A stretch of 64,000 bases of DNA from Caenorhabditis remanei (Eukaryota; Nematoda; Chromadorea; Rhabditida; Rhabditidae): NCBI RefSeq assembly GCF_010183535.1, contig NC_071331.1, positions 12,524,001 through 12,588,000 on the forward strand, in the 5' to 3' direction. Below are positions 1,284 through 61,341 of the stretch, piece after piece; the stretch's first letter is position 1; each line of letters opens with the position of its first letter. The translations under genes and the position numbers were made by a program. The notes under the pieces were generated by a model. It saw only the letters and a list, made by a program, of their open reading frames with translations. It did not search any database and was not told the DNA's origin.

Positions 1284-1351
1284 CTGTTTCAGTCGGTTTA
1301 CCACAGCAGTAAATTCAGTGAGGAGCTCAATTTGATCACATTTGATCTGGT
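1284..1351 (+). ncRNA. Candidate 21U-RNA (piRNA) locus
   Basis: Exact CTGTTTCA core at 1284-1291. A YRNT element (CAAT) puts the candidate 5' U at 1331, 47 nt from the first core base, so the predicted RNA is 1331-1351. It lies in non-coding DNA near the left edge. The first of two cores on this strand within 320 bp; both are followed by GTCGG. Confidence 0.42.
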
Positions 1352-1600
1352 CTCAACTCTCATATCAGTTAAGTTTTTCCATAAATAATTGAACAGATCA
1401 GATTTTCTAAAGATTTTTAGTGTTAGTTTACACTTCCAATAGGAAACTGAAAACTATCTTTGAATGGTTCGAAAAGATTGAAGAGATTTGTAAAAAACTT
1501 GTTTAAGTTATAACAGAACATTTCATTCTAGTCTATTCTCTGACTTTTCATCAGGAAAATGATTTTAGTTTGAATACTTATTTTCGAACTTCAAAATTAA

Positions 1601-1667
1601 CTGTTTCAGTCGGCTTAATGAATGGGAAACTGTAATTGAAACATGTTTATCATCGAAAATTAAAAAA
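1601..1667 (+). ncRNA. Candidate 21U-RNA (piRNA) locus
   Basis: Exact CTGTTTCA core at 1601-1608, followed by GTCGG as in the 1284 copy. YRNT (TGTT) gives a candidate 5' U at 1647, 46 nt from the core start; predicted RNA 1647-1667. Confidence 0.42.
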
Positions 1668-2095
1668 CTCATAAAAAGGCGAAAAGATATCTAACTTTTT
1701 CGACCAAACAAAAAAACTTTCAGATTTCGAAACGCCATGAAACTGGAAAATGTATTTAATTTTCCAAACTGAATTGGAAGAATCTAGAAACTGTCTAATT
1801 CGGAGACTCTTTGAATTTCAGAGATTTCCCACCAAGACTCTCAATGAGTCTAGAATAAACTTCTCAATGTTTACAAACCACCGAAAAAGTGTCATTACCA
1901 CTTCTAGATATCACTCCAAATGACACTAATACCAAACAACTAACTGACCCCCCTTCACTCTAGATACCTTTTTTAATATTTACTCTAATAGCACCCCTGC
2001 CGGGCAGGTATGGCATACTAACAAAGGAAATAGTCCTTGACTTTTTTCTGAAGAATGAAGAGTGGGAAGGGACACTAATCCTAGAATAAACTCAC

Positions 2096-4160: not shown

Positions 4161-4227
4161 TGGTATCAATAACTAACAGGATTGTCGTAATGTATCTCTA
4201 GTTTAATATTAAAACAATTTGAAACAG
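4161..4227 (-). ncRNA. Candidate 21U-RNA (piRNA) locus
   Basis: TGAAACAG at 4220-4227, so CTGTTTCA on the minus strand. YRNT (CAAT) gives a candidate 5' U at 4181, 46 nt from the core start; predicted RNA 4181-4161. Intergenic. Confidence 0.42.
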
Positions 4228-4465: not shown

Positions 4466-4534
4466 AATGATAATTGAAGGATAAAAGCATGGAAGGTTTC
4501 ATTCGGAGGTCATTAACAAAACTTTTTGAAACAG
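4466..4534 (-). ncRNA. Candidate 21U-RNA (piRNA) locus next to a MITE
   Basis: Minus-strand core at 4527-4534 with YRNT (TGCT) placing the 5' U at 4486, 48 nt from the core start, at the long end of the spacing seen here. The hAT-type MITE begins 28 bp upstream of the core, so any upstream promoter sequence would have been displaced by the insertion. Confidence 0.36.
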
Positions 4535-4561: not shown

Positions 4562-4827
4562 CAGACTTGTCAAAAATCGGGCCGGCCCGGGCCGGGCCTC
4601 GGGCCGGGCCGGGCCAAAATTTTTCCTGATTTCAAAAAATGGGTACCCATTTTTACCAAATTTTATTTGAAATTTTTCGAAAAAATAGAGTAAAAATGCT
4701 TAAATTATCATACATATTCACATTTTTCCTAAAATTTCCAAAAAAAAATCAAAAACTCAAAATGTTTCAAAAGAGCCGGGCCGGGCCAAAATTTTTCCTG
4801 ATTTCGGCCCGGCCCGTGACAAGTCTG
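4562..4827. mobile_element. Non-autonomous hAT-type MITE, copy 1
   Basis: A 266-bp element with terminal inverted repeats starting CAGACTTGTC and ending GACAAGTCTG. It is flanked by a perfect 8-bp direct repeat ATAATTTT (4554-4561 and 4828-4835). Both ends carry GC-rich GGGCCGGCCC-type inverted repeats around an AT-rich centre. An 8-bp target duplication with CAG...CTG ends is the hallmark of the hAT superfamily. There is no transposase frame, so it would need an enzyme in trans. A second copy sits at 27445-27835. Confidence 0.85.
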
Positions 4828-5481
4828 ATAATTTTAACGCCAAGAGTCCGACACATTGAAAACTAGCATCCAATGACATTCCTCATCAGAAATTTACAAC
4901 CAATTCGTCCGAAATAAGAGACTTCGAACGTAGATGAACTATTGAAATTAACGTTATTATATAATCAAGGAACTAAACTCTCAAAATCATAATCTTTCAC
5001 AACTAAAATTACAAACCAAAAAGCTACTTCCTAAATCCAGATCCACAATACTTCCTCTTCTCCAAAACTACAATGAGACCCATTCTTATCCTCTCTCCAG
5101 GGTCCCATAAACTTATGAATGTAGAGCTTTAGATTCTTATCTCAATCGACACACTAATCTGGATCTTACATAATGTTTTATTACACGACGATATTCGAAA
5201 AATTGGCAAATTATTAAAAGAAAAATATTTGGGGACAGGTAAAGGGGTGCATTTCTACCAGTATCAAATTATTCTCATTGAGCGATGAAAGGACTAAAGG
5301 TTTGGATAAGGGGGTAGAGATTACGGTTATTAAAGTGTGAAGCAACTTTGAAAATGAAATGAAAGAAAAGTACAAAAAATGCCACAGGTTAGCACCGGAG
5401 GAAGCTGAAACAATGAGAAAGTGTACAGTAACTAGTGTCTAAATTGAATGAAAAAACAGAAGAAAAGTAGTACAGGCGAGT

Positions 5482-9083
<3,602 letters not shown>

Positions 9084-9305
9084 TTCCAAAAGAAAATTAC
9101 GACCTTTCGGTCTAATTCCTTCAATAGAAATCTTGTTGAAAGTTTGTTGAAGCTCCAGAAAAAAAGAGCGCGATTTGTCGTCAAGTCTGGTGTTTTGTCT
9201 GCAATAAGACGTGACGAAAGTTGCGGACTGCTCAAAAAAATTTTTGAGACAGCGGAAATATCGGATATCAGGCTGATCTCTTAAAACTGTTCTAATTCCT
9301 CCCAT
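9084..9305 (-). other. fem-1 5' leader with in-frame upstream ATG
   Basis: The fem-1 frame stays open upstream of M(9083) to another ATG at 9305, adding 74 residues. A good acceptor (CTTATTGCAG, exon from 9198) lies inside this extension. If the spliced leader joins there, the first ATG in the mRNA is 9083, which also gives the usual FEM-1 length. I prefer 9083, but a longer form starting at 9305 is not excluded by the sequence. Confidence 0.5.
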
Positions 9306-9755
9306 TTTTTCTTTTTCGTTCTCATATTTTGAAAAGGAAAAGTATTTGTGTCACTCTACGGAACAAACTACGTAGAATGATGCAAAATTTATCAATAAAC
9401 TCCCGAAAGTTGACATTCTCTCACTGAAAAAATGAGTAAGTGGTGGGATTGAAAAGATGATATAAAAGTGAGCGTTCCCAGTCAATCAAAGATCAAATGC
9501 ACCTTTTTCAGTGTCTGTTCGCGTTTATTTTATCACTTGTTATCACTGATCGGGAAGAAACTGCGTCCAAACGCACTGTTTTCAATGTCTCCGCTGGTGG
9601 CAGTTGTTCTTTGTCTTTTTCATCCTCGTCACTTTTGTTTCGCAACTTTCCTCACATCATTCTTTTTTTTTCAACCCTAAAAAATATCATGAATCTCTCA
9701 TTTTAAAAGCACTCCCATCTGTTCTTGACCACATTCAAACTTTATATTCTTACAG
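9306..9755. promoter_or_regulatory. Divergent fem-1/drp-1 promoter region
   Basis: About 450 bp between the outermost fem-1 start and the drp-1 start, with genes transcribed away from each other, so both promoters must lie here. The drp-1 side ends in TATATTCTTACAG directly before ATG, a splice or trans-splice acceptor. No CTGTTTCA core and no repeat seen. The open frames here are T/C-rich and not convincing. Confidence 0.6.
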
Positions 9756-12285
9756 ATGGAAAATCTCATTCCTGTAGTCAATAAATTACAAGATGTATTT
9801 GCCACTCTAGGTCGGAAGGAAGATCAAATTCAATTGCCACAAATCGTAGTCGTAGGATCACAGTCTGCTGGAAAATCATCAGTTCTTGAGAATCTTGTCG
9901 GCCGTGATTTCCTGCCTCGTGGAACCGGAATCGTGACTCGGAGGCCTTTGATTCTTCAACTCAATCATGTTGCCTTAGATGAAGAATCCAAGAGAAGACG
10001 GACTAATGGTACACTACTCACTGATGATTGGGCTATGTTCGAGCATACAGGATCAAAAGTTTTCACAGGTAAGACTGTAAAAAGATGGAGAACCTGAAAA
10101 TCAATTACACTTTTTTTCAGATTTCGACGCTGTCCGAAAAGAGATTGAAGACGAAACTGACCGAGTTACTGGCGTGAATAAAGGCATCTCTCTGCTACCG
10201 ATCAGTTTGAAAATATACTCACATCGTGTTGTCTCTCTTTCTCTAGTCGATCTGCCAGGAATCACAAAAATTCCAGTCGGAGATCAGCCAGCCAACATTG
10301 AAGAGCAAATCAGAGACATGATTCTTCACTACATTTCCAACCCTTCTTCTATCATTCTCGCAGTAACACCAGCTAATCAAGATTTCGCCACATCTGAGCC
10401 AATAAAACTTGCCAGAGAAGTAGATGCGGGAGGTCAGAGGACGTTGGCCGTTCTCACGAAATTAGATTTGATGGATCAGGGAACTGACGCTATGGATGTT
10501 TTGATGGGAAAAGTTATCCCTGTGAAGTTAGGAATCATTGGAGTTGTCAATCGTTCACAACAGAATATTCTCGATAATAAAGCGATTGTGGACGCAGTGA
10601 AAGACGAGCAGAGTTTCATGCAAAAGAAATATCCAACATTGGCCAGCAGAAATGGAACACATTATCTTGCGAAACGTTTGAATATGGTTAGTGAATACTT
10701 TTATCGAACTTTGATAATCACATTTATTTCAGCTTCTCATGCATCACATTCGAAACTGTCTCCCAGCTCTCAAAGCCCGTGTTTCGATTATGAACGCTCA
10801 GTGTCAATCGGATCTTGTCGCTTTTGGAGAACCAGTTGAAGACAAAAACAGAACACTTCTCCAAATCATAACCCGCTTTGCCACTGCTTACACATCGACA
10901 ATTGAAGGAACTTCTCGCAATATTGAAACTACAGAACTTTGTGGGGGTGCCCGCATATGCTATATCTTCCATGATACTTTCGGAAGATCATTGGAGTTGG
11001 TCAATCCTCTTGAAAACCTCACGCAGTTGGACATTTTGACAGCGATAAGGAATGCGACGGGACCAAGACCGGCACTTTTTGTTCCTGAAGTTTCATTCGA
11101 ATTGCTTGTCAAAAGACAAATTCAAAGACTTGAAGAACCTTCTTTGAGATGTGTTGAGTTAGTTCACGAGGAAATGCAAAGAATGGTTCAACACTGTGGA
11201 TTCACTACTCAACAAGAAATGATCCGATTCCCAAGACTTTACGATAAAATTAACGAGGTTATCAGTGGAGTTCTGAAGGAACGTCTGAAACCAACAAATG
11301 AATTGGTTGAGAATCTCGTTGCTATTGAACTTGCCTACATCAACACTAAACATCCAGAATTCACCGAAGCCAATCTGGTGACTTTGCTGAAAGAGGAATT
11401 GTCATTGGAAGATCGACATGGTCGCAGTCGGAATCGACACGCATCTACTGGAGAACGGGCGGTCAGTGCTCATGGAGAACAGGTGGGGAGTGATAGAGTA
11501 GTTTGGGTTTGAGCCTTGTATGAATTAACGAAAGCCATTAAATTTTTAGTTCCTTCGTCTAGTTTTTGACCGATTGAAAAGTTACAGCAAATTGCTCCGG
11601 TTCCCGGAATCAACGGAGTCGACCTCAACGCCGCCCTCCAACAGCAACAACAGCAAAATCCACGTACTTCGGCTGGATCTGGTTTCCTTGGATTATTCGG
11701 AAACACATCCACTAGCAACAAGTCTTCTCCACAAGAAAGTGAGCGTTCGAAATATTTCCAATTTTACAAATAAATTGTTTCAGAGCAATCCGCTAACTTT
11801 TTGCCAGAAGTTCCAGAGACTCAATTGGGAAGAAAACTCACAAGTCGCGAACAGAGAGATGTTGCCATTATCGGTTGGTTCCTTAACTCATAAAAGGTAA
11901 CCTTATCACCTATTTCTTCAGAACGTCTCATCCGAAACTACTTCATTATCGTCCGCAAAAACATCCAAGATAGCGTGCCGAAAGCGATTATGGCGTTGCT
12001 TGTGAACTTTGTCAGGGTTGGTTGACCTCATCTTTCTAGATATAAACGCTAACTTTTTTATAGGACAATTTGCAATCCGAACTCGTGCGGCAGTTGTACA
12101 AACCAGACGAAATGGACGATTTGTTGGCTGAAACTGAAGATATGGCACAGAGAAGACGAGATACTCTCGAGACGATGAAGGTGAGCATATTGTTATCAGA
12201 TTGATTGTGAATGATGTATACTTTCCAGGCCCTTCAACAAGCCAGCGTTATCATAAGTGAAGTACGAGAGACACAAGTTTGGTGA
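9756..12285 (+). CDS. drp-1: DRP-1, dynamin-related GTPase of mitochondrial fission
   Basis: Eight exons: 9756-10068, 10121-10686, 10733-11482, 11588-11738, 11784-11873, 11922-12016, 12064-12180, 12229-12285, giving 712 residues, the expected DRP-1 length. The GTPase domain shows the P-loop GSQSAGKSS (34-42), switch motif DLPG (148-151) and TKLD (217-220). The middle/stalk domain follows. A variable B-insert-like stretch with a short Gln run (LQQQQQQN) leads into the C-terminal GTPase effector domain ([13 protein letters not shown] onwards). The protein assembles on mitochondria and drives outer-membrane scission; in C. elegans it also takes part in cell-death-linked fragmentation (known for the family). 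The exon 3 donor at 11483 is GTGGGG, weaker than its neighbours. The ATG abuts an acceptor, suggesting trans-splicing. Confidence 0.96.
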
Positions 12286-12602
12286 AATGGTAAACCGAGT
12301 ACACCACTTCCAACGACACAATATTCAGCTGTTTTATATACAATGTAGATTAGGATCTATTTTATTTATGATCAATTCAATTTTTGTTTCCCAATCGCTA
12401 TTTATTCATATTCATTATTAGCCTTTTTTTCACCTCGATGATAATTCTAGTTCGGTAACTACCCGCTTCTTATGATCTCAGTCCATCTTCTGTCCCATTG
12501 AATTGATTTAACCCATGTGCTCTTCAAAAAATCACGGTGTTTGGTAGTTTCTAGATTTTTTGTTGCTTTTAAAAGAAATGTTGACAAAAGGAAGAAGGTA
12601 TA

Positions 12603-12608
12603 AATAAA
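12603..12608 (+). terminator. drp-1 poly(A) signal
   Basis: Canonical AATAAA 318 nt after the drp-1 stop codon, followed by T-rich sequence. I saw no earlier canonical hexamer on this strand after the stop. Confidence 0.6.
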
Positions 12609-12818
12609 ATTGTTCGATGTGCAAAATTAATCAAATATTTCCTTTCTATTTTCTCAATCTGTTGCTTCTACCCAGATTGTTCCCCCATATTTTGAGTGTT
12701 TCCCTCATTTTTTTTTTCTTATTTTCATATATTTTGAAACTTTTCTTTCCTGCAGAACCATCTGTTTTAATCTGCTAGAAAAAATTGATCTCATCGGGCA
12801 TTCTCATTGTGTTGCGAC

Positions 12819-13009
12819 CAAGGCTGTCAAAAAGGCCGTGGCCCGATTCTATATCTCAGTTCCCAGCCATGGAAAATTTTCGCTTTTTCAGGCGGCCTTG
12901 TAGAGGGCCAAAAGATTAGTCGATGTACAAAAATTCAGCCCATTTGGTTGATCCGCGGCCTCGGCGGCCCTAAAAGCCGAGGGCCGCGGCCGGCCGTGCG
13001 ACAGCCTTG
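12819..13009. mobile_element. Second family of hAT-type MITE
   Basis: A 191-bp element with 10-bp inverted ends CAAGGCTGTC...GACAGCCTTG and GC-rich internal arms (GGCCGTGGCCC on the left, GGGCCGCGGCCGGCC on the right). It is flanked by an 8-bp direct repeat with one mismatch (GTTGCGAC at 12811-12818, GTCGCGAC at 13010-13017). The left end shares the TGTCAAAAA stretch and GC-rich design with the other MITE family in this window. The duplicated target is itself nearly palindromic, which makes the inverted repeat look longer than it is. No coding capacity. Confidence 0.7.
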
Positions 13010-13364
13010 GTCGCGACGACAGCGACATTCGAAAAAAATTAAAAGTTAAATACTTCAACTTTTTTAGTTGTGTGTTTGTTAAGGAGTTCTCACATTCGAG
13101 CAAACTGTACATTTCAAAAAACATACCGTTTGCAACTATTGAGGTCGCTTTCCCGCGTTAAAATGTTCGAGTCCCCAGACACAGGAATACTTTCTGGCGC
13201 GAGAACGCGAATATGTTCATAACTGTATAGAACGGTACAAACTTCTTCGATCTGGGTTATATGCATCTTTTCATCAATAAAAACTATGTATTTTTTGTTT
13301 ACTTCTCAACCTTCTTAACTATTTCCTACCTCTATTTGAATACTGTTAAAACGTTCATTTCCAG

Positions 13365-16300: not shown

Positions 16301-16655
16301 TCAGGCAAATGTACCGGATGGATATGCTCTTCCAGTGTTCAAACATGTACGTAGTGACGATGGAATCATGATTGAAAAGTTAACGTGAGTTAAATAAACC
16401 TTAAATTTGTTTGTCTTATTTTCAATTTTCAGTCTACTTCGCCAAGGCGAAGGTCTAACCGCCAACGATGCCGACATTGGATTGATTGAAATGACGCCAT
16501 TCAGCTCACCTGGATGTCGGTATTACTGTATTGAAAACAGTAAATGCGAAAAAAGTTTGGTCGTTCCTGGAAATGCTCATATTGAGATAAGGGGAGAGTT
16601 CACCGAGCCGATGACTTTCGTCACTCAAGTTCTATTTATCAAAAAGAACATCTAG
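13365..16655 (+). CDS. cec-6: Chromodomain protein, CEC-6-like
   Basis: Eight exons: 13365-13520, 13568-14026, 14218-14313, 14355-14738, 14783-15518, 15563-15997, 16045-16384, 16433-16655; 942 residues in one continuous frame. An N-terminal chromodomain spans residues 9 to about 80 with the methyl-lysine cage aromatics Tyr9, Trp55 and Trp65 (motifs YEVEAVL, VHWKGF, TWEPE). It is interrupted between the first and second strands by about 27 extra residues. A Lys/Glu- and Ser-rich linker follows, then about 600 residues of well-packed but unrecognised sequence. Chromodomain proteins read methylated histone H3; in C. elegans cec-6 is linked to germline maintenance (established for that gene). The symbol is a guess from fold and position between drp-1 and an ari-2-like gene. 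The ATG abuts TTTCCAG. Confidence 0.85.
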
Positions 16656-24780: not shown

Positions 24781-24788
24781 TGAAACAG
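24781..24788 (-). promoter_or_regulatory. 21U-RNA promoter core without a clear start element
   Basis: Exact CTGTTTCA on the minus strand, but I find no YRNT 42-48 nt downstream. It may be a weak or decayed locus, or chance. It is the first core right of the cluster-free block. Confidence 0.25.
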
Positions 24789-40548: not shown

Positions 40549-40614
40549 CTGTTTCATTATATTGTTTATTCCGAACGGTTGGAAGCCAATTATTGCCAAT
40601 CTTTCTTCCAACAA
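40549..40614 (+). ncRNA. Candidate 21U-RNA (piRNA) locus
   Basis: Core at 40549-40556; YRNT (TATT) gives a 5' U at 40594, 45 nt from the core start, with an alternative CAAT start at 40590 (41 nt). About 0.6 kb upstream of the fkh-7 ATG on the same strand. Confidence 0.45.
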
Positions 40615-47100: not shown

Positions 47101-50100
47101 ACTCCACAGGGTCAGCTGATTGATACCCGAAAAGAAAATAGAACGAAACGAGTGAGAGAAAGTCATTGTAGAGGAAGGAGAAATAATTGAAACGGTGACA
47201 AAAAAGAGAGAGAGATGACATGTCTGGGGTACCAGGTACACTTTTGAAGATTCAAGGTCCTATTCGAAGTTTTGAAATCATCAAAAATGATTGATATGGG
47301 CTGTAGTGTACATATCTCAAAATCATATATCAAACCTCCATTCCAAAAGTTTCAGAGAATCTCCTCCAAAGTTAACTTTAACTTTTCCTATCCTTCATTT
47401 CCAGTCCTTAAAAAGCAAACAGTGCCATTAGTAGTCTACCAAAATAAACTTCGAACTTTCCCCTCTGATGTTATCATAACTTCCTCCCTAAAATTTAATA
47501 TTTGCCTGTGTTTATATTCTGTTTCGATTTGTTTATTCATACTTTTTTCCGATCCTCTTTTCCTCAAACTTCCCCCCTTTCCTACCTATATTTTTTTTAT
47601 TTCTCTCTTGTTGTTGTTCATTCGGCAAACATTCGGAACGGATGACCCACAATTTCTGGCTTCTCCGCTTTTTCCCATCAAATCCCGCCCACTTTTCTCA
47701 ATCCGCGCGTCATCCGCAAAAGGACGTGTGACTTTGATGTACTTTTTTATGAATCCAATGATTTTTGATGATAGATTGCTGAAAAGAGGTGTTGTGTTTT
47801 TGTGAGAGTTTATAAAGATTTGAATGGGGAAGTGATGATCTGCAAGATTACGGTATTGAGGCTTTGGGAGCTGCTAAGCGAATTATGGTACTTGTGATTC
47901 CAGGAATTCTCCTTGTTTTTCAGTTTTTGGAGAGAGAGAGTGGGAAAAGGAAGAAGAAGTTTCAGTCTTCTTACTTGGATTCTTGCAGTACAGTCGTGCA
48001 CAGGAAATTATGTCCATTTATTAATTCTGCCGAGATATCTGAGAGCTTTGTTTAGTGTCTGAAACAGTATCTTTTTTGATTTTGATATTAAAGAATCTGA
48101 ATTTTTTTCAAGATCAGGATACTTTTTCTTATCATATCCTGTCGGAAAATGTTCTAATCAACCCTTCCTCAGAGAAGAACTCAGATTTTCTAGTAATTGC
48201 TTTTTCTCATCGATCCCTTGTTAAAAACCACATTCTGATCTCACCTCCATCTGAAACTGTAACTCAATTGTTGATTTTTCCATAAAAGTCACACTCCATC
48301 AATGTTCCCGTATCCATCCAAAGTGTCCATCCACCTCCCGTATCTTGTCACACTCCTTTTTTTTCGTTCCTCCTCAATTTCTGCATCCCGTGCCTGGGGT
48401 TTTGTATCCAAGCGCGATCCGCATCACAAACAAATTCCTGTTCTTCCCATTTCTTCAATTTATCACTTTTATCTAGTTTCAGAACTTTTTTCTGGCTTTC
48501 GACGACACTCGAAAAGCGAAGGTGATAAGATGAATCATGTGAGGAAATGGATTTTTGAACGCTTCTCATCGACACTTATTAAGAGATGGATTACTGTACT
48601 TGTTATTGTTTTCTTGATCTTTCTGAAAATTCAATTATCCTCTCTTTCCATATATCTCATAGTATTACTGTCTAGACGTTCTAATTATTCTTTTTTTGTT
48701 GCGGAACGTTGTTATTTGTCATCAAGTTGTTAGGTACTACTAGGCACATCTGGGTACGTAGGTCATTCACTTTCGTTAATGTTTCGAAATATATCGTCGT
48801 CTCCAGACAGAATGCACTTTTAAAAAGTACACACCATTCTCCATTTACCCCATTTTTACAAGGCCACCACTTCCACCAAAACGTTTTTCTCTACAAACGA
48901 CGACATCTCAAGATGACAGCTGTTGTCTTCTCTTGTTTCTTTCTGTCTGTCTGCCACGTCACACCCCCACACACTCGAGAGGATACACTGGAAGAAGTTT
49001 GCATCTTTTTGTCTTTTCCTACTCTTGTTTGTGTCATCCTTCTCGATTTTTGTTGACAACAGAATATCGTTTCATTGTCTCATTTTCTCTGCGTCACTAC
49101 GTTCATTGTGCTCTTTCATTTGGGGTTACGCGGACGAGAGAGATGTGATGACCTTTGGGGAGAAGTAAACAACTTGATAGATGAGGTTTCGTGTTGTCTT
49201 TTCCCGGCTGAAGATTCTTTTTTGTTTCTTCTGGCATCGAGAAACTTGTTAGTTACCAGACGAAGAGGAGGTGTCAGTCTCGAAGGACATACGGTCTGGT
49301 GAATGAATTTGAACGGTTTCCCGCCATTGGTTTTGAAAATTTTTGGAAATTATGGACCTTTTGAATATATTATCACTTTTTTCTTGTTAGCTCATGCTCA
49401 AACTTTTTAAACAGACCATAATCTTCAACTGATAGACCATAATCTTCAACTGATGGCTGTAATCAGATTTCTGCAACTGTAAATTTAGAATTTTAAGTTT
49501 TTTTTCTATATTTTTCTTGATTCAAGTTTGAGGTATAGTGTCCGCCGGAAAGACCATCATTTTTTCTGTTTCACTTTGCATTGATTGTACGGTATTCTGA
49601 TCAAGCTTAGGAAGTCCTTTCTACAGTAAACAATTTTTGTGCATAATTTTCCTGACAAGTCAAATTCTGAATGCATATGTACTGAATATGAGTATCAAAT
49701 CTTGCTTGACTTCTGAATAGAAAAATTCCAACTATCACAAAATCAACCTTTACTGTTTTGAGAATCAAACTTATTCACATTTCGTAATGTCTCTATCATT
49801 AAGATTCTAAACCTTCTGTCCTTGAAATCTCCAAATCTCGAGGACGCACACAGTATTCTAGTTCCAGACACTCATTGTTTTTATGAAACATTTGTAAGAT
49901 CACCATCCCAAATTCCATATGAATACATTTGTTTACTTCCACAAGTTCATCGTCTTCTCTTTGTCTTATCCTTACTCACAAGATGTTTGACGCAATCGCC
50001 TCCCCATATCCCCCCATTCACAAATCTCTTGCTCACCACCACCCTCTCAAGGATTATCCTTTTTTTTATCTTCTAGCGTGTTGTGTTGGAAGAAAAGTGA

Positions 50101-53100
50101 GATAATTATTTGATAGCTGGGTTAATCCCAATGTTTTGGCATTCAAAAACACACAAACAATCACACGAAACTTTCCACTTTTTATCTGTCCACGTCAATT
50201 GAAAGGCACGTGGCGTGCATCAAAAACTAAAGGATTTTGAAGAGATTAAGAAAGGGAAACAGAGATTTCAAAAGGTGAATGGGAGAGGGTGGAGCTGAAT
50301 TGATGATCTGATGATCTGGTGGTCTGGAGAGGGTGTTCATGGAGATATAAATGTTAAAAAATGATGAGATTTTTGGATCCAGGTCAGGATCTCAAATCTC
50401 AAACTGGTCAGCAGTGCTTCTTTTTAGCACATTGTCTAGTAGCCTGTGAGTTTTAGGTAACAGTAAATCATTGATTGCTGGAAACTCACGCAAGGTTAAA
50501 GTAAGAAAAAGCAATATACACTTATGCAATTCATGGCACTGAAACTCCGAGCCCTTCATGATTTTATAACTTTTGCGTAACAGTAAACCAAAGTTCTAAT
50601 AGAATTCCCTCTCTAATTGTTTTCAGTAACTGGATTGTTTGTTTGTTTGTTTGTTGAGTAACTCATTTAGTTGTGTTCTTGTTGATTTGTGTACATTCCC
50701 ACACATTTCTTTGTCAAACAGTTCCTGGAAATTGGGGTGAGTGAGTGGTTATTGTATTAGTGGGGTTGCGTTTTCGAGTTTTGTATCTCTGCGTTTGTGA
50801 AACCAGCCATTCTCATTTGGTCCATAACCATTTCTTAAAATTCTGTAGTAGTAATTCATTGTTGACAACAACTTTTCAGTGCTCTTCCTATTTTTGATTA
50901 CAATATTTCTTATCATAAGAAATATATCAGGTTCTGAATTACGACTCGCTCCTAGATTCCCTCTGAATTTGAGTCCTGTTTCTTTAGTGGTTTTGATGTT
51001 CTGTCTGATCAGTGCTTGAATATATCAGAACTTGCTCATATCTCATGACCCACTGACCGTATAGCTCTGATTTTTGAGCTCATTGGATTCTGTGAGTCCT
51101 GTGGCAAACGTTTTTTTTAATCATTAACGTGACATGTACATTAGTTCTGATCTAGGATAGTTTTGCGTTAAAGGAAAAAAGGAATCTCCAACTATCCTCG
51201 TCGACGCATCCACCAACTCATTCCCAAACTGAAACAGTACTTTCTCAGAGTTCGTGAAGGTGTGAATATCACCTTCTCAGTTACCTGAAACCATATTGTT
51301 TATTCAATTCACACCTGTTTCCTTGAGAATACAAAAACATCTTCTCTCTCATCTAATTACCATTCGATCTTTCTTCTCATCACTTACCATTTCATTTATG
51401 AATATTGTTGTTATTGTTTATGATTCTTCATCTTCTTCTCGGTGTTCTTCCTTCTTCTACTTCATCTGCATCTTCATCTCCATCTCCTTCCCATCTTCTT
51501 CTTGTTTTCCGACCACCAGACGTCTTCAGCTTCTTCTTCTTCTTCCATAAAACCCCGCCCACTTTTCCTCGTATTCCTTTTTGCTTCTTCTTGTCTTGTT
51601 TGTGTTTTCATAGTTTTCCATCCCCTTTCCCGCTGCTTTTGCATTCTATTTCCTTTCGTTTCCTATTTTCACTACTCCCACTCCTCCCCCTTTTCTCACT
51701 ATTTTTGTGTTTTTTTTCTGAGTTGAACAACACAAAACATCTCCAGACAAGGGGAGACATGGTGTGTGAACAAGTTCAATGTTTTCAGTCAAGCGAAAAG
51801 TTTCATTCCTTGACGTCTTCTGTTTTGGTCTAGAGAGCATTCAGAAGATGCTCGTGTTTGTGAAGATGCACTTCTATAGTTTCAAATTTGCTCTTCTTTT
51901 GTCTAATGATAAGAATCACGTTTTCATTTTGAGATTAGGTAGAGACGTTGGTTCTAATCAGACTGTTTCTCAGCTCAAAGCTGGCAGGGTTGTCTGACGT
52001 GATATGAAAAGTCTAGGTCAGAATGACCTAGACCAAAAAGGTCCAGTTAAACTATCTCTGAGCTTTAACTTTCAACTGAAACTCACATTAATCTCAAAGA
52101 CTCTAGGGGATACTACTAGCCTACAGTAACCCGATTAGACGCATATGCTAGCTAACAAAGATTCTGAGTATCACTGTCCTTTTCTATCATAGTTTGGCAC
52201 TTTTCAATATTTCTGATCAAACAATCAAATCACCTTTGCCCTCCCCTGTCCAGGACAGGAACTCCACTTTCGATACTTTTCTACCTCCCCCCTCTTCAAT
52301 ATATTAGTGTTCCTGTACTATAACAACACCCTCGTCTCATCTCAAAAGTGCAAAGTCTGTCTCTTCCAACCAGGCAACATAGTTTTGGGTTCAATATGAT
52401 CACAACCTTTCCTTCTTCTCGACCGAAAAACCGAAAACACAGTGTGTGTATTTAGAAAAGAGGCTGCTAACTGGTGCATCACATAGTCGAATCCCATCCT
52501 TCCATCGAAGACAACGACGCGCAAAAGTGTGTGTGCACTAGAGTACAGACCCGCCTCCATCTACCTCAACCCTACTGGCCTTTCTTTTTTTTCAATCGCC
52601 CGCCTGTTTTCTGTTTCTTTTTCCGTGGGTGATGAGGCCAAAAGTGCGCAAAAATACCACTTATTCAAAACATCCGAACGGCCATTTTTGTTGTCTTTTT
52701 CCGTTTTGACAATATTTTTTTTTGGAAGAATTGAGACAAAGTGACATTGAATGACATAACGATGTAAATATGTTTACTAAAGAAATGCCTTGTTTTTTTT
52801 TGCTACTCGCTGGTTGCCGATCTCCTATGACTCGTAGTGACTTGATCTCTTTTTCTTTGGCTAATCCCCTCATTGCTCATTTTTGAATCAAAGAGAGAAA
52901 AAAATGTTTGTTTGGGGGGTGGAACCAAGGAGGAGGTGATGATGGTTTTGGAATGTTGAAGAGATTAGAAAAACATCCTGAAATGATAAATTTTGAATTA
53001 ATTCTTGGTGCAAATAATGTATGATCCTCTGGGTGCGACATGTATCATTTCAATTAAGAAGTTGGCTACGATGTTTGAATGTGTGTACCTGAACTATAAA

Positions 53101-56100
53101 TATGGGGACCTGTAATGTATCATTAGCTGTTTACGTATATTGTTAGGTAGTCGGTAATTCTTTGTGTTTAAAAAGTTTGAGTCATTAAAAACTGTTCCAC
53201 TCAGTCAGGTAAACATTTCTTATCATACTGTTCCAGGTACTTTCGATCCAGATCAGTTTCTGTACTTTTTCCCCACTTTTCTGTACCTTTCAGTCTTTCT
53301 ACCCATCACTTCTCTTGTGTACTTTCTCACCCTAGACTCATTTCGTAATCCCATTTACCATCTGTGCCACTGTTCATTAGTACTTCTTCGACTTCTCCTC
53401 CTTCGTTTCATGCCGATTGACCTCTTCCTAAACAAATAAAATGACGTGGCAAACAAATACAAATAACCTCTACATCTCCCTCTTCCTATTATCCGATATC
53501 CTCTCTCTCTCCATCTTCCAAATAACAAATATGGGCACAGCGCTCTCATTGAGACTGTACATGCAACAGTTTGTGCTGCTTTTGTTGCGGAGGTGGTGAG
53601 GTTGGTTGAGGACGATTGCATAGACATATCCGACGACCTCATCTCGAGATTTGAGAGAAATAGTGTGTGAGATGAAGAGACGCAGAGACAAGGCCCAAAC
53701 AACCAATCGAACCAACCAAACCAACACCGGTGTTGACAAACAAAAGAGTGTTGAGGCGAGAAGAAGAGACGGAGAATAGTTGGGGCGGGCGAAGAGAAAA
53801 GATGAAAAAGAGAAAAAAGAGAAGAAGAAGGTCCTTCTCAGAGAGGACCACCTTCCGTCTAGATCAGATGTTTAGTTGCTTTTACAAAGTTTTTTTCTAG
53901 TTTTCGGATTTCAAAACTTCAAATTCGTTTTTCATTCTCAAGAAGGATACGGTTTCATACTATTCTCAAATTCTGTCGTATCTAGGTTCGCCGTTCATTA
54001 AAATTCCCAAATTTCCAAATTTTTCCTCCTGGCTTTGTTTAAAAGTGCAAGTACATTTGTCTACGTCTTTGATTTTTTCTTCTTCTGATTTTGAAAAATT
54101 CTACACTTTTTATCCCTTCAAACACTCACACACACAATGATTTCATATTTATTGGGTCAATTTACGTAAATCGGAATCACATGTGAATAAAAAAAGAGAT
54201 TGGATGTATATGTTGATTATGTTTTGTTTTTGGTTTTCTAGAGAGGGTTTAACGTTTTTCGCCCCGGTTTCCGCGCCACCAGAAATCCTCTAATTCGTTT
54301 GCACTTTCTCGTTTTTTTCACTCTCTCTTTGACTCCCCTATGAGCCTTTTGGTCCTGAAACTCCTCCCACTTTATATCCTCCTGAACTTGATGATTTTTG
54401 TGAAACTGATCCATGAATTCATTACAGGACGATCAACATCGCCAGAGCACCACGACGCTAAATAACGTCCTGGCGCCGTCGTCGATGATCACCTCTGAAT
54501 CATTGCCTCGACCGACTCAGGCTCCCTCATCATCATTTTCACATTCAACGATCGGTGGAGGGAATTCATCCCAATTACCAGTATCATTAGATACTGGAAA
54601 TCCCCTCAACGATAATTTACTTCTGTTGGCATTGCAGGAGAGAATTGTGAGTTATTGTGAATTATAAAATTTGATGAGCCTTGAGAAGATTTAAAGAAAC
54701 AGTGAAAACTCTTCAAACTCACAAAATGATAACCTAAATGCAACTAGGTACACAGAGAAGAAGAAGAATCACATGACATCAACAATCCATCAACATTATA
54801 AAATACCAAAAACTGAATCAACAGACACGGTACCTCATGAAAACATTCTGTTTCAAACTTCCTACTTTTTCACATATTTTTGAGAAACTCATTTTGTTCA
54901 TCTCCTCTCTTATTTCAGATGCGTCCCCAACAACCCACCCTCACCCAATCAGCCACCACTCCCTCCCTTTCTCATCTGGCGGCTACCAACTCCTCCACCA
55001 ATGCCACGTCACTAGCATCTGCTGATACGACACGACTGATACAGCAAATGTTTCTGGGGCAGATGTTGATCCCTCAACTTCCATCCGCACTGGATCTGGC
55101 GTCGTCGATGTCACTTCCATTGTCAACTGCAATACCACAAGCGATCACAACTCCCCAACATGCATTATGGCAACATAGTATGTGTGCATGGCCGAATTGT
55201 GATCAGCCGTGTGATTCGGTGATGGCTCTGATTGCTCATTTACAACAGGAACATCCATGTTGTGAAAGGTGAGTCTTTGATTACAGTTTCAATTAGATTT
55301 GAAGAATATACACATATCTATCGTATTATTAATTGTTTGACCAACATTTAAAAAATCTACACAATTACAGAACAAACGAAGAAATGCGAACGCAGATCGA
55401 AAAAGTGGAGAGTCTGGAGCACAAGTTGTCAGTGGAAAGAAATCGTCTGCAAGGGATGATGCAGCATTTACGAATGAAGCCATCTCCCGATACGACGACT
55501 CCAAGCCTTGGAAAAATAGATCCACAAAGTCCGATGAGGTCTCCGAAAGTAGAAGGAGCTGCGTTTTCGATTCAACCCGCCCATCAGCAACAACAACAAC
55601 AACAGCAAGTGACACAACAGATATCACAAGTTTCCCCCGTGAGTATTTCATATTTGGAGTTTTCGAACATTTTGAGTGAAAACTTTTTTGAGAAAATTCG
55701 TATAGTAAAAAAGGTTTCGAATTCTTTAAAACTGTGTAGATGTCGGTTACGTCAAAAAAGTTACTGTTAAAATCAAAAATTACTGTTTCCTAAATGTTAG
55801 TTTTTACCTATTAGTTTAAATAAGCAGTTGAAACTCTTTGAACCTAATAAAAATTCTTCCTTCGCTATTTTCAGTCTAGCTCAGAAAAATGCATTAACTC
55901 ATATCGACTTTATAATTCAAACTTTCCTGAAAGATTTCATAAATGCATTTCGAAATCCTCTCCCATACTTTCTTCTAAGAAGTAGTACATATTGACGATT
56001 TCGAAAGTTGTTCTCTGAAACATAATGGGCTCAGAATCACATGTTATTTACTTATTTGCTCACTGTCACCTCCTTCTTCCTCTTCTCTTTCGTATCCATG

Positions 56101-59100
56101 GTGTTTCTTTTCTATGAATGCTCTATCCTATTACACAATTCATAGTCCTTCTAGGATTGCACAACACTCTTGATAGACAACGTGGAACGAGATGGGAAGT
56201 CTCTTTTCGTTTTCGATGTGTTTGTCTATTTACAGAGTATTTGTTGAAATACGCTCTCTCTCTCTCTCTTCTCCATTTGCTATTTGGTTGTGTGTGCGTG
56301 TTTGTTTACATGTCGAATCGATAGTGCAGATAAACATAAAGGACGTCGCAGCCCTAACCACCAGTAGGACGTCCTTTTCTAAAAATTTTGGAATAGGGAA
56401 CAAATTTTATAGAGAGTTGGGATAGGGAGCTGTCAGAAAATATGGAATATTATTTGGATACCGTAGTCTTGGCCTTCTAGAATTCCAATTCTCAAGCGGC
56501 CACATCAGAATTCAGAAGAGTTTACTGTTTTACTGAGAAAGTATATCTCGGAAAGTTTTGTATAATAGGTTCAATTTTTCTTTTTCCATTGCTAATGAAA
56601 ATCAGAATCACATTCACGGCATGAATTCCCACGCAATGATGAATATCAGTCCGGAAATCCGCCTGAAATCAAATTAGCCTTCACTTCCGTTGCTTATTTC
56701 AGTAAGCACCTTTTCTCCTCCTCCCAGCTGCTTATACATAGATCAAACACTAATAGAAACGTGCACTTTTAGTGTCTCTTCATCCCAGACACCCTTTCAT
56801 CTCGCGTGGCTTGTTTGTTTATTTACTACGTTTTTGTTTTCTCAGTCTCTGCGTCTATTCAAATTCTCTCATCTCTTATGATGATGATGACAAACTTTTT
56901 CGCCTCTTCCCCTCCATGTGATATGGATTTCGAGAACAATGAGTATATGAGGGAAAGCGAAATATGTTGTGTATGTTTATTTTGTGGTCACACAAATACA
57001 CACGGAAAAAGGACGGATGGGAAGGAGAAGAAGATGCTGCTGCTTATTTTGTGTTGATAAACAATTTTCGCCTCGAGAAAAGAGCGCATCTTTTCGTTTG
57101 CTTCTTCATCTTCTCCTTGACTCCTCCCATTTATTTTTGGATAGCAAACAAAACACTTTGCAACTGAATAGAGAGAATAGTGGATGAGGAAGAGAACAAA
57201 CTAATTGAAACAATATGCAGGGAAAATTGGATAACAAGAAAAACTGGAAAACGGAAACCATGACTTTGGGGATAGAAAAAAAGAAACATAAGCTTACCGT
57301 CCAGTTGGACCATTGAAGTTGAGGAAATTGTGTCTTCTTTTTTGAAAAGTTAACAACAGTAAAAACTTTTTGAGATCTAAAAATGTTCAGGGATTTCTCG
57401 ATAAATTTTGAGTGTGACAGTCCAATTATGAAGATTTTGAGTGAAGTTGTCAGAAGCTAGGACTCACAGATTTCTGAAATCTTCTCGGTTAGGTATTCTA
57501 GAAACTTCAATATGTCATGAGTCTCCTGAAATAGATACTATTTTTATATTTATCCATAACACGATGTCACAGATTGAAAGTTGAACTCCACATATTTCAA
57601 TCGCTGTCTGAAAAACTTTAAATTCTTCATATCAGAAGTACACTTTCCTACTCTTCTTACCATCCGGATAAAGAAAGATTGAAACAGTTCATAAAAGGAG
57701 ATTTACCGTTTCCAATGACTCATTCCGTTCGTCCTTAAACATTTTATTCAAATGAGTCAGCTACATCTCTTCTCCTCTTCAACCAGATCTTGTCATTTTC
57801 CTCAATGAACAATAAAAAACAAAAACAACAAAAACACAACCAGTTGATGACATCAATCCCACTTCCTCAGTTGTTTTTGTTATTGTTTGTTCCCATTTTC
57901 CTTCCCATTCTATTCTCAAATGGTTCCCGCGCAATCCTTCCTTACTCATCTCTGATCGCTGAAGAAGACACATAAGAAGGCAAAAAACTGGGCCATTCAG
58001 TCAGTTGACTACAACAAAAAGTCAGTTGACACCACCGTACCGTGTAGGAAAAGAGGAAAAATGAGATGGAAAGGGGAAGAAGAGGAAAAAAACATGGATA
58101 TATGGAAGGAAGAAGAAGAAGCTTCTTCTTGTTTTTGTTCCATTTTTTCCTTGATCATCACTTCCAAAGATACAAAAAATTGAGAATCCAATTGAGAAGG
58201 GGTCAATGAATGAGTCAGATCACAAAAAAACTAGAAACTGAGCAAACTCCACCAGAAGTACTTTTATAATCCTATTTTCAGACGTCCGAAGCCGCATCCT
58301 CCCTCCTGAGCATCGCAGCTTCAGTAGCCGCCTCTACCGCAGCTTCGAACCAGATGACTACAGTACCTTCCGTCAGTTCGATGCCAACTTTCATCAACCA
58401 TCAGCTGTCAACATCCTCTCAACCATCATCTCATCAAGCCAGTGGATCAAGCGGACCGATTCTTCTTCAACGAGCAGCCAGTTCAGCATCAACAGAAACA
58501 TCTCCAAATCCAGATTCGAAGTCATTTGTGCCTAGAAGGAGTCGGATATCAGACAAAACAGTTCAGCCGATTGCCACTGATATCGCAAAAAATCGGTGAG
58601 TTATTTTTTGAGACTAAAAAATCTCGGTTTCGTGCTCTTAATTTCAATTCAATTGAGAGAACTTTCTTGTTCGTTTCATAGTGTTTTTTTCAGAGAATTC
58701 TACCGAGCTAACGATGTCCGACCTCCTTACACTTATGCTTCACTGATCCGTCAAGCCATCATGGAATCCACGGATTGCCAGTTGACACTCAATGAAATCT
58801 ACACGTGGTTCACCGAGACTTTTGCATATTTCCGAAGGAATGCCGCAACGTGGAAGGTTCGTAATTCTTTTGATGTTGTTAGAAATACCATAACTTCTAC
58901 CAATTATATGTTCTTGCGACATTGACATCTAAGTCTCCACCATGAAACATTAGACTCTATTTCTGAAAATCAGTTCAGTTGAACTTTCTATCCATTTGTC
59001 CCCAGAGCTCTCTCTCTCTCATTTCCTCTCTCTTTCAATTCTGTCGCCGGAGGTCATATGATCCTTGTGTTGCTTCCTAGCTAGAGGCAATAAGAGTGAA

Positions 59101-60773
59101 AAAAGTGCATGCAACAAAACATCGTCGTCCGACTCGCTCTGAATGCATCCTTCCATCAGCTGAGTGTTCTCTCTCTCTCTCTCTTCGTCGTTGGATAGTG
59201 AGAGGCACCATCCAATCCTAAAAGATCATACAAAAAGAGGAGTGTGGTCGCCAGGAACAAGCAAAAAAGTGCAACTCAACATCATCAAGTGACAGACGTG
59301 TATGTGTGCACAGACAGACACGGACGGGGCGCCGGGGGGCCATGAGGGTCGTTTGTGAACAAAAAAAATAAACGAGGGAGTGTTTTTTTATTGTCTGGTT
59401 TTTTTTCGAAAGGAGAGAGTAAGGGGTCGAAAGTCATGGACTAGGGGTTGGAAGTTCCAAGAAAACAGAACAGAAAAACAGACTAAACAATTTTCGAAAA
59501 TTCCGGAGATCAAAGAATCCAGATTTCAGAATGCCGTTCGACACAATCTATCCCTTCATAAATGCTTCCAACGGGTAGAACAAAACGTGAAAGGAGCTGT
59601 ATGGACTGTCGATGATTCAGAATTCTATAGAAGGAGGCCTAATCGGTCGTCAGCTACAAGAAGTCAACCGCAGACGCCTCTTCCAGAAGACGTAAGTTTC
59701 TGATTGTTCTCTATGCATGTTTAGAAGGTTTTTGTTGCTTTTTAGAGTTCGCTTTTGTATTAGTCTCTAGTGTGAGTCTTGTCTTCCATTTTCAACTAAC
59801 CTTTATATCATGTGATAGTCTATATTTTAACCTTTGAATATGGTCGACAAACCTAAAAAAGCGAACTTTGAATTGACACTGATACACCTGAAAAACATGC
59901 TCTTCACTCAAAAGAGCTCCCTTCTAGAACCTTGTCAATTCAGATTTCGCAGCATAGAATGTTTGATTCAAATGCTTTGAGCTCATTTTTGGAAATGCAG
60001 AACTTCGATCCGGCCACACTCTCTGGAGAACAATTTCAGCTGAATGGCGGAAATCTTGACAGTGTTTTGTCGCTTCTTGGTGAGCACACTCTTTTTGATG
60101 AATGTTTTGGAAATCGAGTTCGTTTCTTTTTTAGCAAACGCCGATGTGAACAACCCATTGCAAATGCTCTCAGCAGCTGCAGCTGCCGGTAATCATTCAG
60201 GAATACTGGAAGGGCAGCAGTTGAATAATGTGAAGGATGAAATGATGGATGTGGTGGAGCAGCATAATGGACACACTCTAAAAGGTGAGATTTACATTTG
60301 AAAGGGACTTCCGTTTTTCTGTTTCACTGAGTTTACTAGTCGTTAGCTTTATAAAATTTAGTTGCTAATTTTATTACTTTTAATTCAAATTCCATAAATG
60401 CATAGGTCTTCATTCGCACAGATTAGGATAAAATTGCCCAATCATTGAATTGATTTTTATCGCTTCAAAACTCGACTCACAGTAAAATAAATAATTTCAG
60501 CTGAGCGGTTTTCTTTCCGTAAAAGTTAAACACCAATAATTTTTAGCATCAAATTTGTAGACTATCTGAACACCATTACCAGAGATGCATTAGTAGTTCA
60601 CGCTCTACATTATCACCATTTTATGTTCCCATTCTCGCTTAAAACCGCTTCTCATAATTACAGAAATCTCCCAAAATCAAAACTGAAACCAAAAAATTTC
60701 AGTGGCCGGAAACATTCAAAAGACGACAAAACGGCCCGCTTCAGCGAATCCATCAACAGTTTCCTCGTGCTGA
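41150..60773 (+). CDS. fkh-7: FOXP-family forkhead transcription factor
   Basis: Ten coding exons: 41150-41671, 54428-54646, 54919-55268, 55371-55638, 58282-58595, 58694-58856, 59530-59691, 59944-60079, 60135-60284, 60703-60773; 784 residues. An acidic, Ser-rich N-terminus leads to the FOXP C2H2 finger (Cys336, Cys341, His354, His359) and then the FOXP leucine zipper (about 372-398, [19 protein letters not shown]), which mediates dimerisation. A short Gln run follows. The forkhead domain starts at [18 protein letters not shown] (from residue 566), and its recognition helix [13 protein letters not shown] opens exon 7. FOXP is the only forkhead class with this finger-zipper-forkhead order, and fkh-7 is the C. 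elegans member (memory). Introns are unusual: 12.8 kb after exon 1, 2.6 kb at 55639-58281 and 0.67 kb inside the forkhead domain. Exon 3 begins with ATG directly after TTTCAG, a possible internal start. Confidence 0.93.
42031..42098 (+). ncRNA. Candidate 21U-RNA (piRNA) locus in fkh-7 intron 1
   Basis: Core CTGTTTCA at 42031-42038; YRNT (CAAT) gives a 5' U at 42078, 47 nt from the core start. Same strand as the host gene. Confidence 0.4.
43501..43566 (-). ncRNA. Candidate 21U-RNA (piRNA) locus in fkh-7 intron 1
   Basis: Minus-strand core at 43559-43566; YRNT (TATT) gives a 5' U at 43521, 45 nt from the core start. Antisense to the host. Confidence 0.45.
44638..44652 (+). repeat. (GA)n microsatellite
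   Basis: Fifteen-base GA run in fkh-7 intron 1, in a locally purine-rich patch within otherwise T/C-rich sense sequence. Confidence 0.7.
44857..44922 (-). ncRNA. Candidate 21U-RNA (piRNA) locus in fkh-7 intron 1
   Basis: Minus-strand core at 44915-44922; YRNT (CGTT) gives a 5' U at 44877, 45 nt from the core start. Another minus-strand locus lies 350 bp to the right. Confidence 0.45.
45211..45275 (-). ncRNA. Candidate 21U-RNA (piRNA) locus in fkh-7 intron 1
   Basis: Minus-strand core at 45268-45275; YRNT (TGTT) gives a 5' U at 45231, 44 nt from the core start. Confidence 0.45.
47685..47697 (+). promoter_or_regulatory. CCGCCCACTTTTC motif, copy 3
   Basis: Exact 13-mer in fkh-7 intron 1, preceded by AATC. 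It shares its setting with copy 4, 3.9 kb downstream on the same strand. Confidence 0.3.
48000..48067 (-). ncRNA. Candidate 21U-RNA (piRNA) locus in fkh-7 intron 1
   Basis: Minus-strand core at 48060-48067; YRNT (TAAT) gives a 5' U at 48020, 47 nt from the core start. Confidence 0.4.
49413..49454 (+). repeat. 21-bp perfect tandem duplication
   Basis: Two adjacent identical 21-bp units starting AGACCATAATCTTC, in fkh-7 intron 1. Identity suggests a recent slippage or repair event. Confidence 0.85.
49567..49574 (+). promoter_or_regulatory. 21U-RNA promoter core without a clear start element
   Basis: Exact CTGTTTCA in fkh-7 intron 1. The only YRNT nearby (TGAT, T at 49602) is 35 nt from the core start, outside the 42-48 nt range of the other loci. 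Confidence 0.25.
50636..50655 (+). repeat. (GTTT)n microsatellite
   Basis: Five GTTT-type units in fkh-7 intron 1. Confidence 0.8.
51171..51237 (-). ncRNA. Candidate 21U-RNA (piRNA) locus in fkh-7 intron 1
   Basis: Minus-strand core at 51230-51237; YRNT (TAGT) gives a 5' U at 51191, 46 nt from the core start. Confidence 0.43.
51555..51567 (+). promoter_or_regulatory. CCGCCCACTTTTC motif, copy 4
   Basis: Exact 13-mer in fkh-7 intron 1, embedded in strongly T/C-rich sequence. Confidence 0.3.
54849..54914 (+). ncRNA. Candidate 21U-RNA (piRNA) locus in fkh-7 intron 2
   Basis: Core CTGTTTCA at 54849-54856; YRNT (CATT) gives a 5' U at 54894, 45 nt from the core start. The predicted RNA (54894-54914) ends four bases before exon 3, so it overlaps the polypyrimidine tract of the acceptor on the same strand. 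Confidence 0.42.
57680..57687 (-). promoter_or_regulatory. 21U-RNA promoter core without a clear start element
   Basis: Exact CTGTTTCA on the minus strand in the 2.6-kb fkh-7 intron 55639-58281. The best YRNT (T at 57637) is 50 nt from the core start, beyond the usual range here. The rest of this intron shows nothing recognisable. Confidence 0.27.
59168..59184 (+). repeat. (TC)n microsatellite
   Basis: Seventeen-base TC run in the intron that splits the forkhead domain. The same intron has a short GC-rich patch (GGACGGGGCGCCGGGGGGCC) near 59322-59341, unusual for this AT-rich region. Confidence 0.7.
60319..60382 (+). ncRNA. Candidate 21U-RNA (piRNA) locus in the last fkh-7 intron
   Basis: Core CTGTTTCA at 60319-60326; YRNT (TAGT) gives a 5' U at 60362, 43 nt from the core start. 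Inside intron 60285-60702. Confidence 0.43.
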
Positions 60774-61278
60774 GAGTGACGTTGTGTTAGTAACTTATCA
60801 AGAAGTCACAACTCATTCACAAATTTAGGGTATTTATATATCACTTAGGATATTCACTTTTCTTCCCATTTTTTGCCTTTTTTCTCTCTTTTTTCATTTT
60901 GCAATACATTGGCATTTGTTATCATACCATGTTTTGTGCTCCTTTGAAAGTCAACCTTTTTTTTTGTCCCCTCAAAAACTTCTTACGGTCTCAAAGTTCT
61001 CCTTAGAAAGTACCCTTTTCATATTCATTTGTTGCCTTCTTGTTCATTATTTTCTCAGTTTTCTCCCCTCATATTATCCCCCAAATCAATCATTTCCAAA
61101 CCATTCAGAGCATTCGATGATCCCGACACACCCTTTTTGATCTACCATCTTCCACACACTTTCCCATCATTTTTCTCTCTGTCAGGGTCTCTCCATTTCA
61201 CCTAATCTCTCCATTTCGATCAGTCTTTAGCGTTGTTTTCGTCTTGTGATCCCATTTCTTTTTTCGGTTTGTCTGAAA

Positions 61279-61341
61279 CTGTTTCAGACAAATTCAACTA
61301 CTGAAATTACCTCCTATCGATGCTCTCTCCTTCTCGTCTCT
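61279..61341 (+). ncRNA. Candidate 21U-RNA (piRNA) locus in fkh-7 3' flank
   Basis: Core at 61279-61286, inside a 19-bp inverted repeat (GTCTGAAACTGTTTCAGAC, 61272-61290). YRNT (CGAT) gives a 5' U at 61321, 42 nt from the core start. Confidence 0.38.

Follow-up and report, generated by a model that had tools for sequence, protein, structure and literature searches.

Across most Caenorhabditis species, the regions dense in PIWI-interacting RNA (piRNA) loci correspond to chromosome IV of Caenorhabditis elegans (PMC6436959, in whose main text the name remanei does not appear), and the chromosome IV clusters of C. briggsae are described as partly syntenic with those of C. elegans (PMC9683057). 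The 21U-RNAs (piRNAs) of Caenorhabditis remanei were profiled earlier by small-RNA sequencing (Shi et al. 2013, via PMC6468775) and are said to be 2–3 times as numerous as those of C. elegans (PMC6468775). No paper mapping piRNA blocks on C. remanei chromosome IV was found by title or start of abstract, a weak negative with most subscription literature outside the search. The stretch analyzed here, referred to as the window, is 64 kb of C. remanei PX506 chromosome IV (contig C4, 12,524,001–12,588,000), taken from a sampled genome of 130.47 Mb in 186 contigs, and it lies inside the low-recombination centre of that chromosome, given as 8.64–17.1 Mb (PMC10461856, Table 1). Judged from its sequence, the window very probably belongs to a block of type-I 21U-RNA genes on chromosome IV, with the octamer CTGTTTCA as their core motif.

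A preliminary description of this DNA had counted 29 exact copies of CTGTTTCA, 15 on the plus and 14 on the minus strand, and had put the chance expectation at 2–3. Recounting returned identical numbers (first copy at 1284, last at 61279), whereas the expectation proved about double, 100 dinucleotide shuffles giving a mean of 5.05 copies (standard deviation 2.29, maximum 11). When set against this dinucleotide-matched background, as had been proposed, the octamer is clearly enriched (29 versus 5.05), and the earlier observation is therefore real; about 5 of the 29 copies are probably of chance origin. Markov models of order 2 to 4 predict 6.4 to 9.4 copies in the window, and the word ranks 7th to 13th among over-represented 8-mers there, behind low-complexity and GC-repeat words. 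The reversed word is found 4 times in the window; genome-wide, 9,483 + 9,517 copies of CTGTTTCA compare with 3,454 + 3,327 of the reversed word.

For characterization of the DNA around the core, the training data were 20 stretches (L009–L028; 200 kb in total) within the left 5 Mb of chromosome IV, and the window was kept unseen. Besides the core, the informative columns around 119 distinct training octamers were −3 to −1 and +12 to +19, and information content was near zero elsewhere than the core, the +12 to +19 element and the initiator. The element 14–19 bases from the first base of the core is weaker than the core and is T/Y- and A/T-rich. Under this training flank profile, the 29 window octamers outscore window positions as a whole (p = 9e-9), 2,453 permuted window octamers (p = 4e-8) and 11 off-cluster octamers (p = 0.009). 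By flank score, 11 of the 29 lie beyond the 95th percentile of the window, and the flanks of three (28342, 38604 and 61279) misfit entirely.

A YRNT initiator could also be followed. Its T peaks at +45, +46 and +47 in the training loci (24, 34 and 27 of 119, respectively), counted from the first base of the core, so that 37–39 bases separate the core from the 5′ U; spacers of about 35 to 42 nt have been published (PMC3597512), and the YR dinucleotide is reported 3 and 2 nt ahead of the T (PMC9683057). Over all 123 training octamers, YRNT occupies 86 of 369 cells at +45 to +47 (0.233 versus 0.07, p = 4e-23). With this range, which had been fixed without looking at the window, 17 of 87 window cells were occupied (0.195 versus a background of 0.066, p = 5e-5), compared with 511 of 7,368 (0.069, no peak) at permuted window octamers and 4 of 45 at 15 off-cluster octamers. 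The wider range of +44 to +48, picked post hoc after the window had been seen, takes in 27 of 145 cells and 25 of 29 loci. Read at the level of predicted promoters, the spacing and initiator of the window match the published type-I 21U-RNA architecture.

In pooled training and window DNA, the +45 to +47 peak was found for the core near-variants CAGTTTCA, CCGTTTCA, ATGTTTCA, CGGTTTCA, CTGTTTCG and CTGTTTTA too, one of which, ATGTTTCA, is the core given for female-enriched C. elegans 21U-RNAs (PMC3597512). The initiator peak stands at the same offsets for cores beginning with C and for those beginning with A (ATGTTTCA). These two core classes differ between the male and female germline of C. elegans, so an outcrossing species is a good one in which to compare them.

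Core, flanks and initiator were combined in a promoter model fitted by expectation–maximization on the training DNA. Above a log-likelihood ratio (LLR) of 9, the window contains 50 sites, the reversed window 2, six order-3 simulations a mean of 4.3, and off-cluster DNA, once its 3 sites in 40 kb are scaled to the window length, 4.8. In the same order, an LLR threshold of 7 gave 90, 13, 23.5 and 27.2 sites, and one of 12 gave 17, 0, 0.5 and 1.6. The 50 window sites comprise 21 exact octamers and 29 variants; further loci are probably driven by near-octamer variants. The training DNA holds some 617 posterior-weighted loci, of which 123 are exact octamers, and single 10-kb stretches of it contain between 0 and 36 model sites. 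The 29 octamer sites of the window are as follows, with the octamer position, the predicted 21U-RNA and the model LLR; "below" denotes a site not among the 50.

1284..1351, plus: octamer, predicted 21U-RNA 1331-1351; weak flanks, possibly chance; below
1601..1667, plus: octamer, predicted 21U-RNA 1647-1667; weak flanks, possibly chance; below
4161..4227, minus: octamer 4220-4227, predicted 21U-RNA 4161-4181; LLR 13.0
4466..4534, minus: octamer 4527-4534, predicted 21U-RNA 4466-4486; LLR 13.5
24781..24788, minus: octamer, no YRNT at +44 to +49; LLR 12.3
25119..25126, plus: octamer, no YRNT at +44 to +49; LLR 10.5
25229..25294, plus: octamer, predicted 21U-RNA 25274-25294; LLR 11.9; weak coding signal
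28281..28349, minus: octamer 28342-28349, YRNT at +48; flank score at 1st percentile, misfit; probably chance
29146..29211, minus: octamer 29204-29211, predicted 21U-RNA 29146-29166; LLR 12.2
30203..30268, minus: octamer 30261-30268, predicted 21U-RNA 30203-30223; LLR 12.8
30772..30840, minus: octamer 30833-30840, predicted 21U-RNA 30772-30792; LLR 13.7
32287..32353, plus: octamer, predicted 21U-RNA 32333-32353; LLR 11.0; antisense within M1-peptidase gene
33766..33834, plus: octamer, predicted 21U-RNA 33814-33834; LLR 10.3
34411..34475, minus: octamer 34468-34475, YRNT at +44; weak flanks, ahead of apparent 3′ splice site; below
35537..35605, plus: octamer, predicted 21U-RNA 35585-35605; LLR 14.1
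36243..36308, plus: octamer, predicted 21U-RNA 36288-36308; LLR 13.6
38604..38668, plus: octamer, YRNT at +44; flanks misfit, probably chance
40549..40614, plus: octamer, predicted 21U-RNA 40594-40614; LLR 11.8
42031..42098, plus: octamer, predicted 21U-RNA 42078-42098; LLR 11.4
43501..43566, minus: octamer 43559-43566, predicted 21U-RNA 43501-43521; LLR 12.5
44857..44922, minus: octamer 44915-44922, predicted 21U-RNA 44857-44877; LLR 13.6
45211..45275, minus: octamer 45268-45275, YRNT at +44; weak; below
48000..48067, minus: octamer 48060-48067, predicted 21U-RNA 48000-48020; LLR 10.2
49566..49573, plus: octamer, no YRNT at +44 to +49; below
51171..51237, minus: octamer 51230-51237, predicted 21U-RNA 51171-51191; LLR 9.8
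54848..54913, plus: octamer, predicted 21U-RNA 54893-54913; LLR 12.7
57680..57687, minus: octamer, no YRNT at +44 to +49, one at +50; LLR 9.7
60319..60386, plus: octamer, predicted 21U-RNA 60366-60386; LLR 13.3
61279..61344, plus: octamer, YRNT at +45; flanks misfit, probably chance; below

Several results weigh against the assignment to type-I 21U-RNA genes. The LLR threshold of 9 was picked after the result table had been seen, and 8 of the 29 exact octamers fall under it, a number close to the 5 expected by chance; 4 of the 29 lack YRNT at +44 to +49. Control offsets of the cluster are themselves slightly above background (0.088 versus 0.070), and GC content is flat at the ends of the predicted 21-mers (86 training loci), with no pausing signature, a feature called weak in C. 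elegans-like species (PMC6436959). Per 10 kb, the window has 7.8 model sites, fewer than the 18.2 of the training DNA at chromosome IV 0–5 Mb but, in favour of the assignment, more than the 0.5 at chromosome IV 14–17 Mb and the 1.0 of four stretches drawn at random from C2, C3 and C5. Exact octamers are likewise less dense in the window than at the left end of chromosome IV (29 in 64 kb versus 123 in 200 kb there, where the densest 10 kb alone holds 18). The left 5 Mb has more than twice the site density of the window, and this, together with the low-scoring octamers and those devoid of an initiator, would suit promoters of the right kind that are mostly decayed or silent here, at a weak edge of piRNA territory with few expressed 21U-RNAs. 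However, 21 of the 29 octamers plus the 29 variants pass the model threshold, versus 2–5 sites in controls, and the initiator rate of the window is near that of the left 5 Mb, such that we consider mostly decayed promoters unlikely.

All 29 octamers had been described as non-coding, which holds within the limits of an exon mask made by hand (0 of 29 overlap) and of codon usage (28 of 29 without coding signal). Of the 12 exons used to train the codon-usage classifier, one was missed at its centre, and the DNA that served as non-coding background for the classifier includes 5 of the 29 octamers. The score of 3.6 at the octamer at 25229 exceeds the 95th percentile of non-coding DNA but not the 99th. 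Among the variants, for which the exon check was partial, at least one model site (34614) lies in a probable exon.

The octamers might be 3′ splice sites (TTTCAG-like) or some other general gene signal unrelated to 21U-RNAs. CTGTTTCAG is similar to the 3′ splice consensus of worms, a G follows the octamer in 7 of the 29 cases, and a few octamers (e.g. 28342 and 61279) have flanks that misfit the 21U model. Nevertheless, the next base is not G in the other 22 (A 12, C 6, T 4), YRNT peaks at a fixed distance, the intron-rich gene block at 4.6–24.7 kb carries no octamers, and enrichment is limited to chromosome IV; the following base and the chromosome bias largely refute a splice-site origin, which is left very improbable.

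The distribution over chromosomes was examined by three thinned genome searches, which returned 37, 69 and 78 octamer positions, with 15, 40 and 46 of these on chromosome IV. In total, this chromosome, with 0.198 of the length, receives 101 of 184 positions (p = 7e-26). Scaled to 64 kb, this corresponds to about 26 octamers inside chromosome IV and, at the shuffle level, 5.2 outside it, with the densities being rough because the thinning words vary in base composition and the positions were unfiltered for repeats; the most G+C-rich word gave the lowest chromosome IV share (15 of 37). Neither C1 (15 of 184, not above background) nor C6 (19 of 184, about background; taken to be X from contig order) stands out. 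Thinned positions hinted at extra density near 7–10 Mb of C2 and 8–11 Mb of C5, where one 5-kb stretch each gave 0 and 1 model sites, respectively; secondary clusters are unsupported by this small sample. The chromosome IV context claimed in the preliminary description is borne out for C. remanei: the window lies on chromosome IV, the one chromosome with octamer enrichment.

Along chromosome IV, the 101 positions are distributed as 49 in 0–10 Mb, 0 in 10–11, 8 in 11–14, 2 in 14–18, 25 in 18–21, 1 in 21–23, 16 in 23–25 and 0 beyond. The scarcity at 10–11, 14–18 and 21–23 Mb suggests several separate piRNA domains.

Enrichment specific to one chromosome, in thinned positions taken without repeat filtering, could also be produced by a dispersed repeat or satellite spread on chromosome IV with the octamer as a part of it. 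Against this, BLAST among the 29 flanks (150 bases on each side) gave a single pair, 25119/25229, which merely overlap at 110 bases apart, information is near zero outside the motif elements, and the predicted 21-mers are distinct in 25 of 25 cases. On the strength of the flank comparison and the information profile, a repeat origin was rejected as extremely unlikely. When compared with the DNA examined in this analysis only, 2 of the 25 21-mers had one further place (≤3 mismatches), and no targets were found.

With the chromosome bias, the position outside predicted exons on both strands, the shared flanks and the YRNT spacing, the evidence supports the 21U-RNA reading, because flank preferences and the initiator, two tests outside the octamer, recur in the window. 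Small nuclear RNA genes with SNAPc promoters were rejected, since an Rfam gathering scan of the window matched mir-228 and mir-790 only, as were type-II (motif-independent) 21U-RNAs, the loci here being defined by a motif.

The "cluster" of the preliminary description holds in a qualified sense; its sites form two blocks (1.3–4.5 and 24.8–61.3 kb) around an empty stretch of 20,254 bases (4,534 to 24,781), for which P = 5.5e-4 under uniform placement. The empty and the larger occupied block are given below.

4600..24700, no strand: octamer-free block, with the fem-1-like, drp-1-like, by-eye chromodomain-like and IBR-domain genes
24700..61600, no strand: main 21U-RNA block, with 41 of the 50 model sites (24781 to 61531), 20 exact octamers above threshold being counted with the variants

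In bases of the octamer-free block outside the exon mask, 9.9 octamers were expected (at the outside rate) and 0 seen, and 16.3 model sites were expected and 2 seen, both expectations being post hoc; the two sites (9035 and 13408) are within the exon mask. In C. elegans clusters, piRNA loci lie in H3K27me3 domains and are nearly missing from H3K36me3 domains, and cluster-region genes without piRNA loci show high germline expression (PMC6436959). By analogy, the 4.6–24.7-kb gap looks like a C. elegans germline-active island. On the left arm, a 10-kb stretch with dense neighbours (C4:3354001–3364000, L022) is free of octamers and model sites alike, and is perhaps another such gene island. The fem-1/drp-1 gap provides a concrete place to ask whether germline-active islands in piRNA territory are kept between species.

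Following what is known from C. elegans, the core would recruit USTC (PRDE-1, SNPC-4, TOFU-4 and TOFU-5), and RNA polymerase II would initiate at the R of YRNT to give a short capped precursor. Removal of two bases would then make the T the 5′ U, and, with the 3′ end trimmed, the 21-mer would be bound by PRG-1 in the germline. In chromatin terms, the occupied blocks would be of the H3K27me3 type, and the empty one would be germline-active.

Genes recognized in the window are listed below; the main 21U-RNA block also holds both microRNAs, the M1-peptidase gene and the FOXP-type forkhead gene.

5887..9350, minus: fem-1-like gene (ankyrin repeats, exons across several open reading frames); frame 7914-8294 matches Fem-1 homolog C (E 7e-34, residues 2-122)
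9729..11512, plus: drp-1-like gene (Dynamin_N, Dynamin_M); Dynamin-1-like protein, E 2e-83
20750..21067, plus: IBR-domain (RBR-type) gene, one exon; Pfam
26140..26224, plus: mir-228 precursor; Rfam; inside main 21U block
30334..30403, plus: mir-790 precursor; Rfam; inside main 21U block
32295..32975, minus: M1-peptidase gene, exon region; homology
54841..58922, plus: FOXP-type forkhead gene (FOXP-CC and Forkhead domains); homology

For the fem-1-like gene, generic ankyrin proteins outscore Fem-1 homolog C. The gene at 13.3–16.4 kb is chromodomain-like by eye, and Pfam gave it no match. In two sets of 10 window fragments searched against Pfam, 5 of 10 were without a family and 7 of 10 without an above-cutoff family; several window genes are left unnamed for this reason. 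A tRNA scan of the window found no tRNA, and no paper giving C. elegans map positions for fem-1, drp-1 and mir-228 turned up in a literature check. A G+C-rich dispersed repeat with a CGGGCCGGGCC core is present in two copies, 4556–4726 and 27439–27664 (94.6% identical over 92 bases and 90.5% over 74), the former right where the left 21U block gives way to the empty one, and a 21-base tandem repeat in two perfect copies lies at 49413–49454.

From thinned and genome counts, chromosome IV carries about 8,300 exact octamers above background. Because of this number, and because exact octamers make up 123 of the approximately 617 loci in 200 kb, we lean slightly towards an enlarged piRNA-gene territory in C. 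remanei, one that takes in both arms as well as the low-recombination centre and so covers much of chromosome IV. Such a territory would hold motif-driven loci in the many thousands, perhaps in the tens of thousands, and gaps in the promoter model would mark the borders of its germline-active gene islands from the DNA sequence by itself.

In comparison with described systems, the window resembles single motif-driven loci of the dispersed (P-type) class in Pristionchus pacificus (PMC6436959), but those lie across autosomes in introns of active genes, whereas the enrichment here is on chromosome IV and is missing from the fem-1/drp-1 block. It shares the core motif and YR initiator with the piRNA clusters of C. 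briggsae on chromosomes I and IV (PMC9683057); unlike that species, with its chromosome I cluster, C. remanei has C1 at background (15/184). It is also like the type-I clusters of C. elegans as described, in the CTGTTTCA core, the A/T-rich spacer, the YRNT initiator, the location on chromosome IV and the use of both strands (PMC6436959, PMC3597512, PMC6468775), and apparently like its "clusters-of-clusters", in which sub-clusters are broken by gene blocks without piRNA loci (PMC6436959). It differs in species, in its place in the low-recombination centre of C. remanei chromosome IV (PMC10461856), and in a chromosome IV territory that looks wider, judged from thinned positions, which are common at 0–10, 11–13, 18–20 and 23–24 Mb of its 25.8 Mb. 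The stretch is a new, sequence-predicted portion of a known system whose mechanism is itself established, and its predicted piRNA loci are an already known kind of gene cluster, in a relative of C. elegans.

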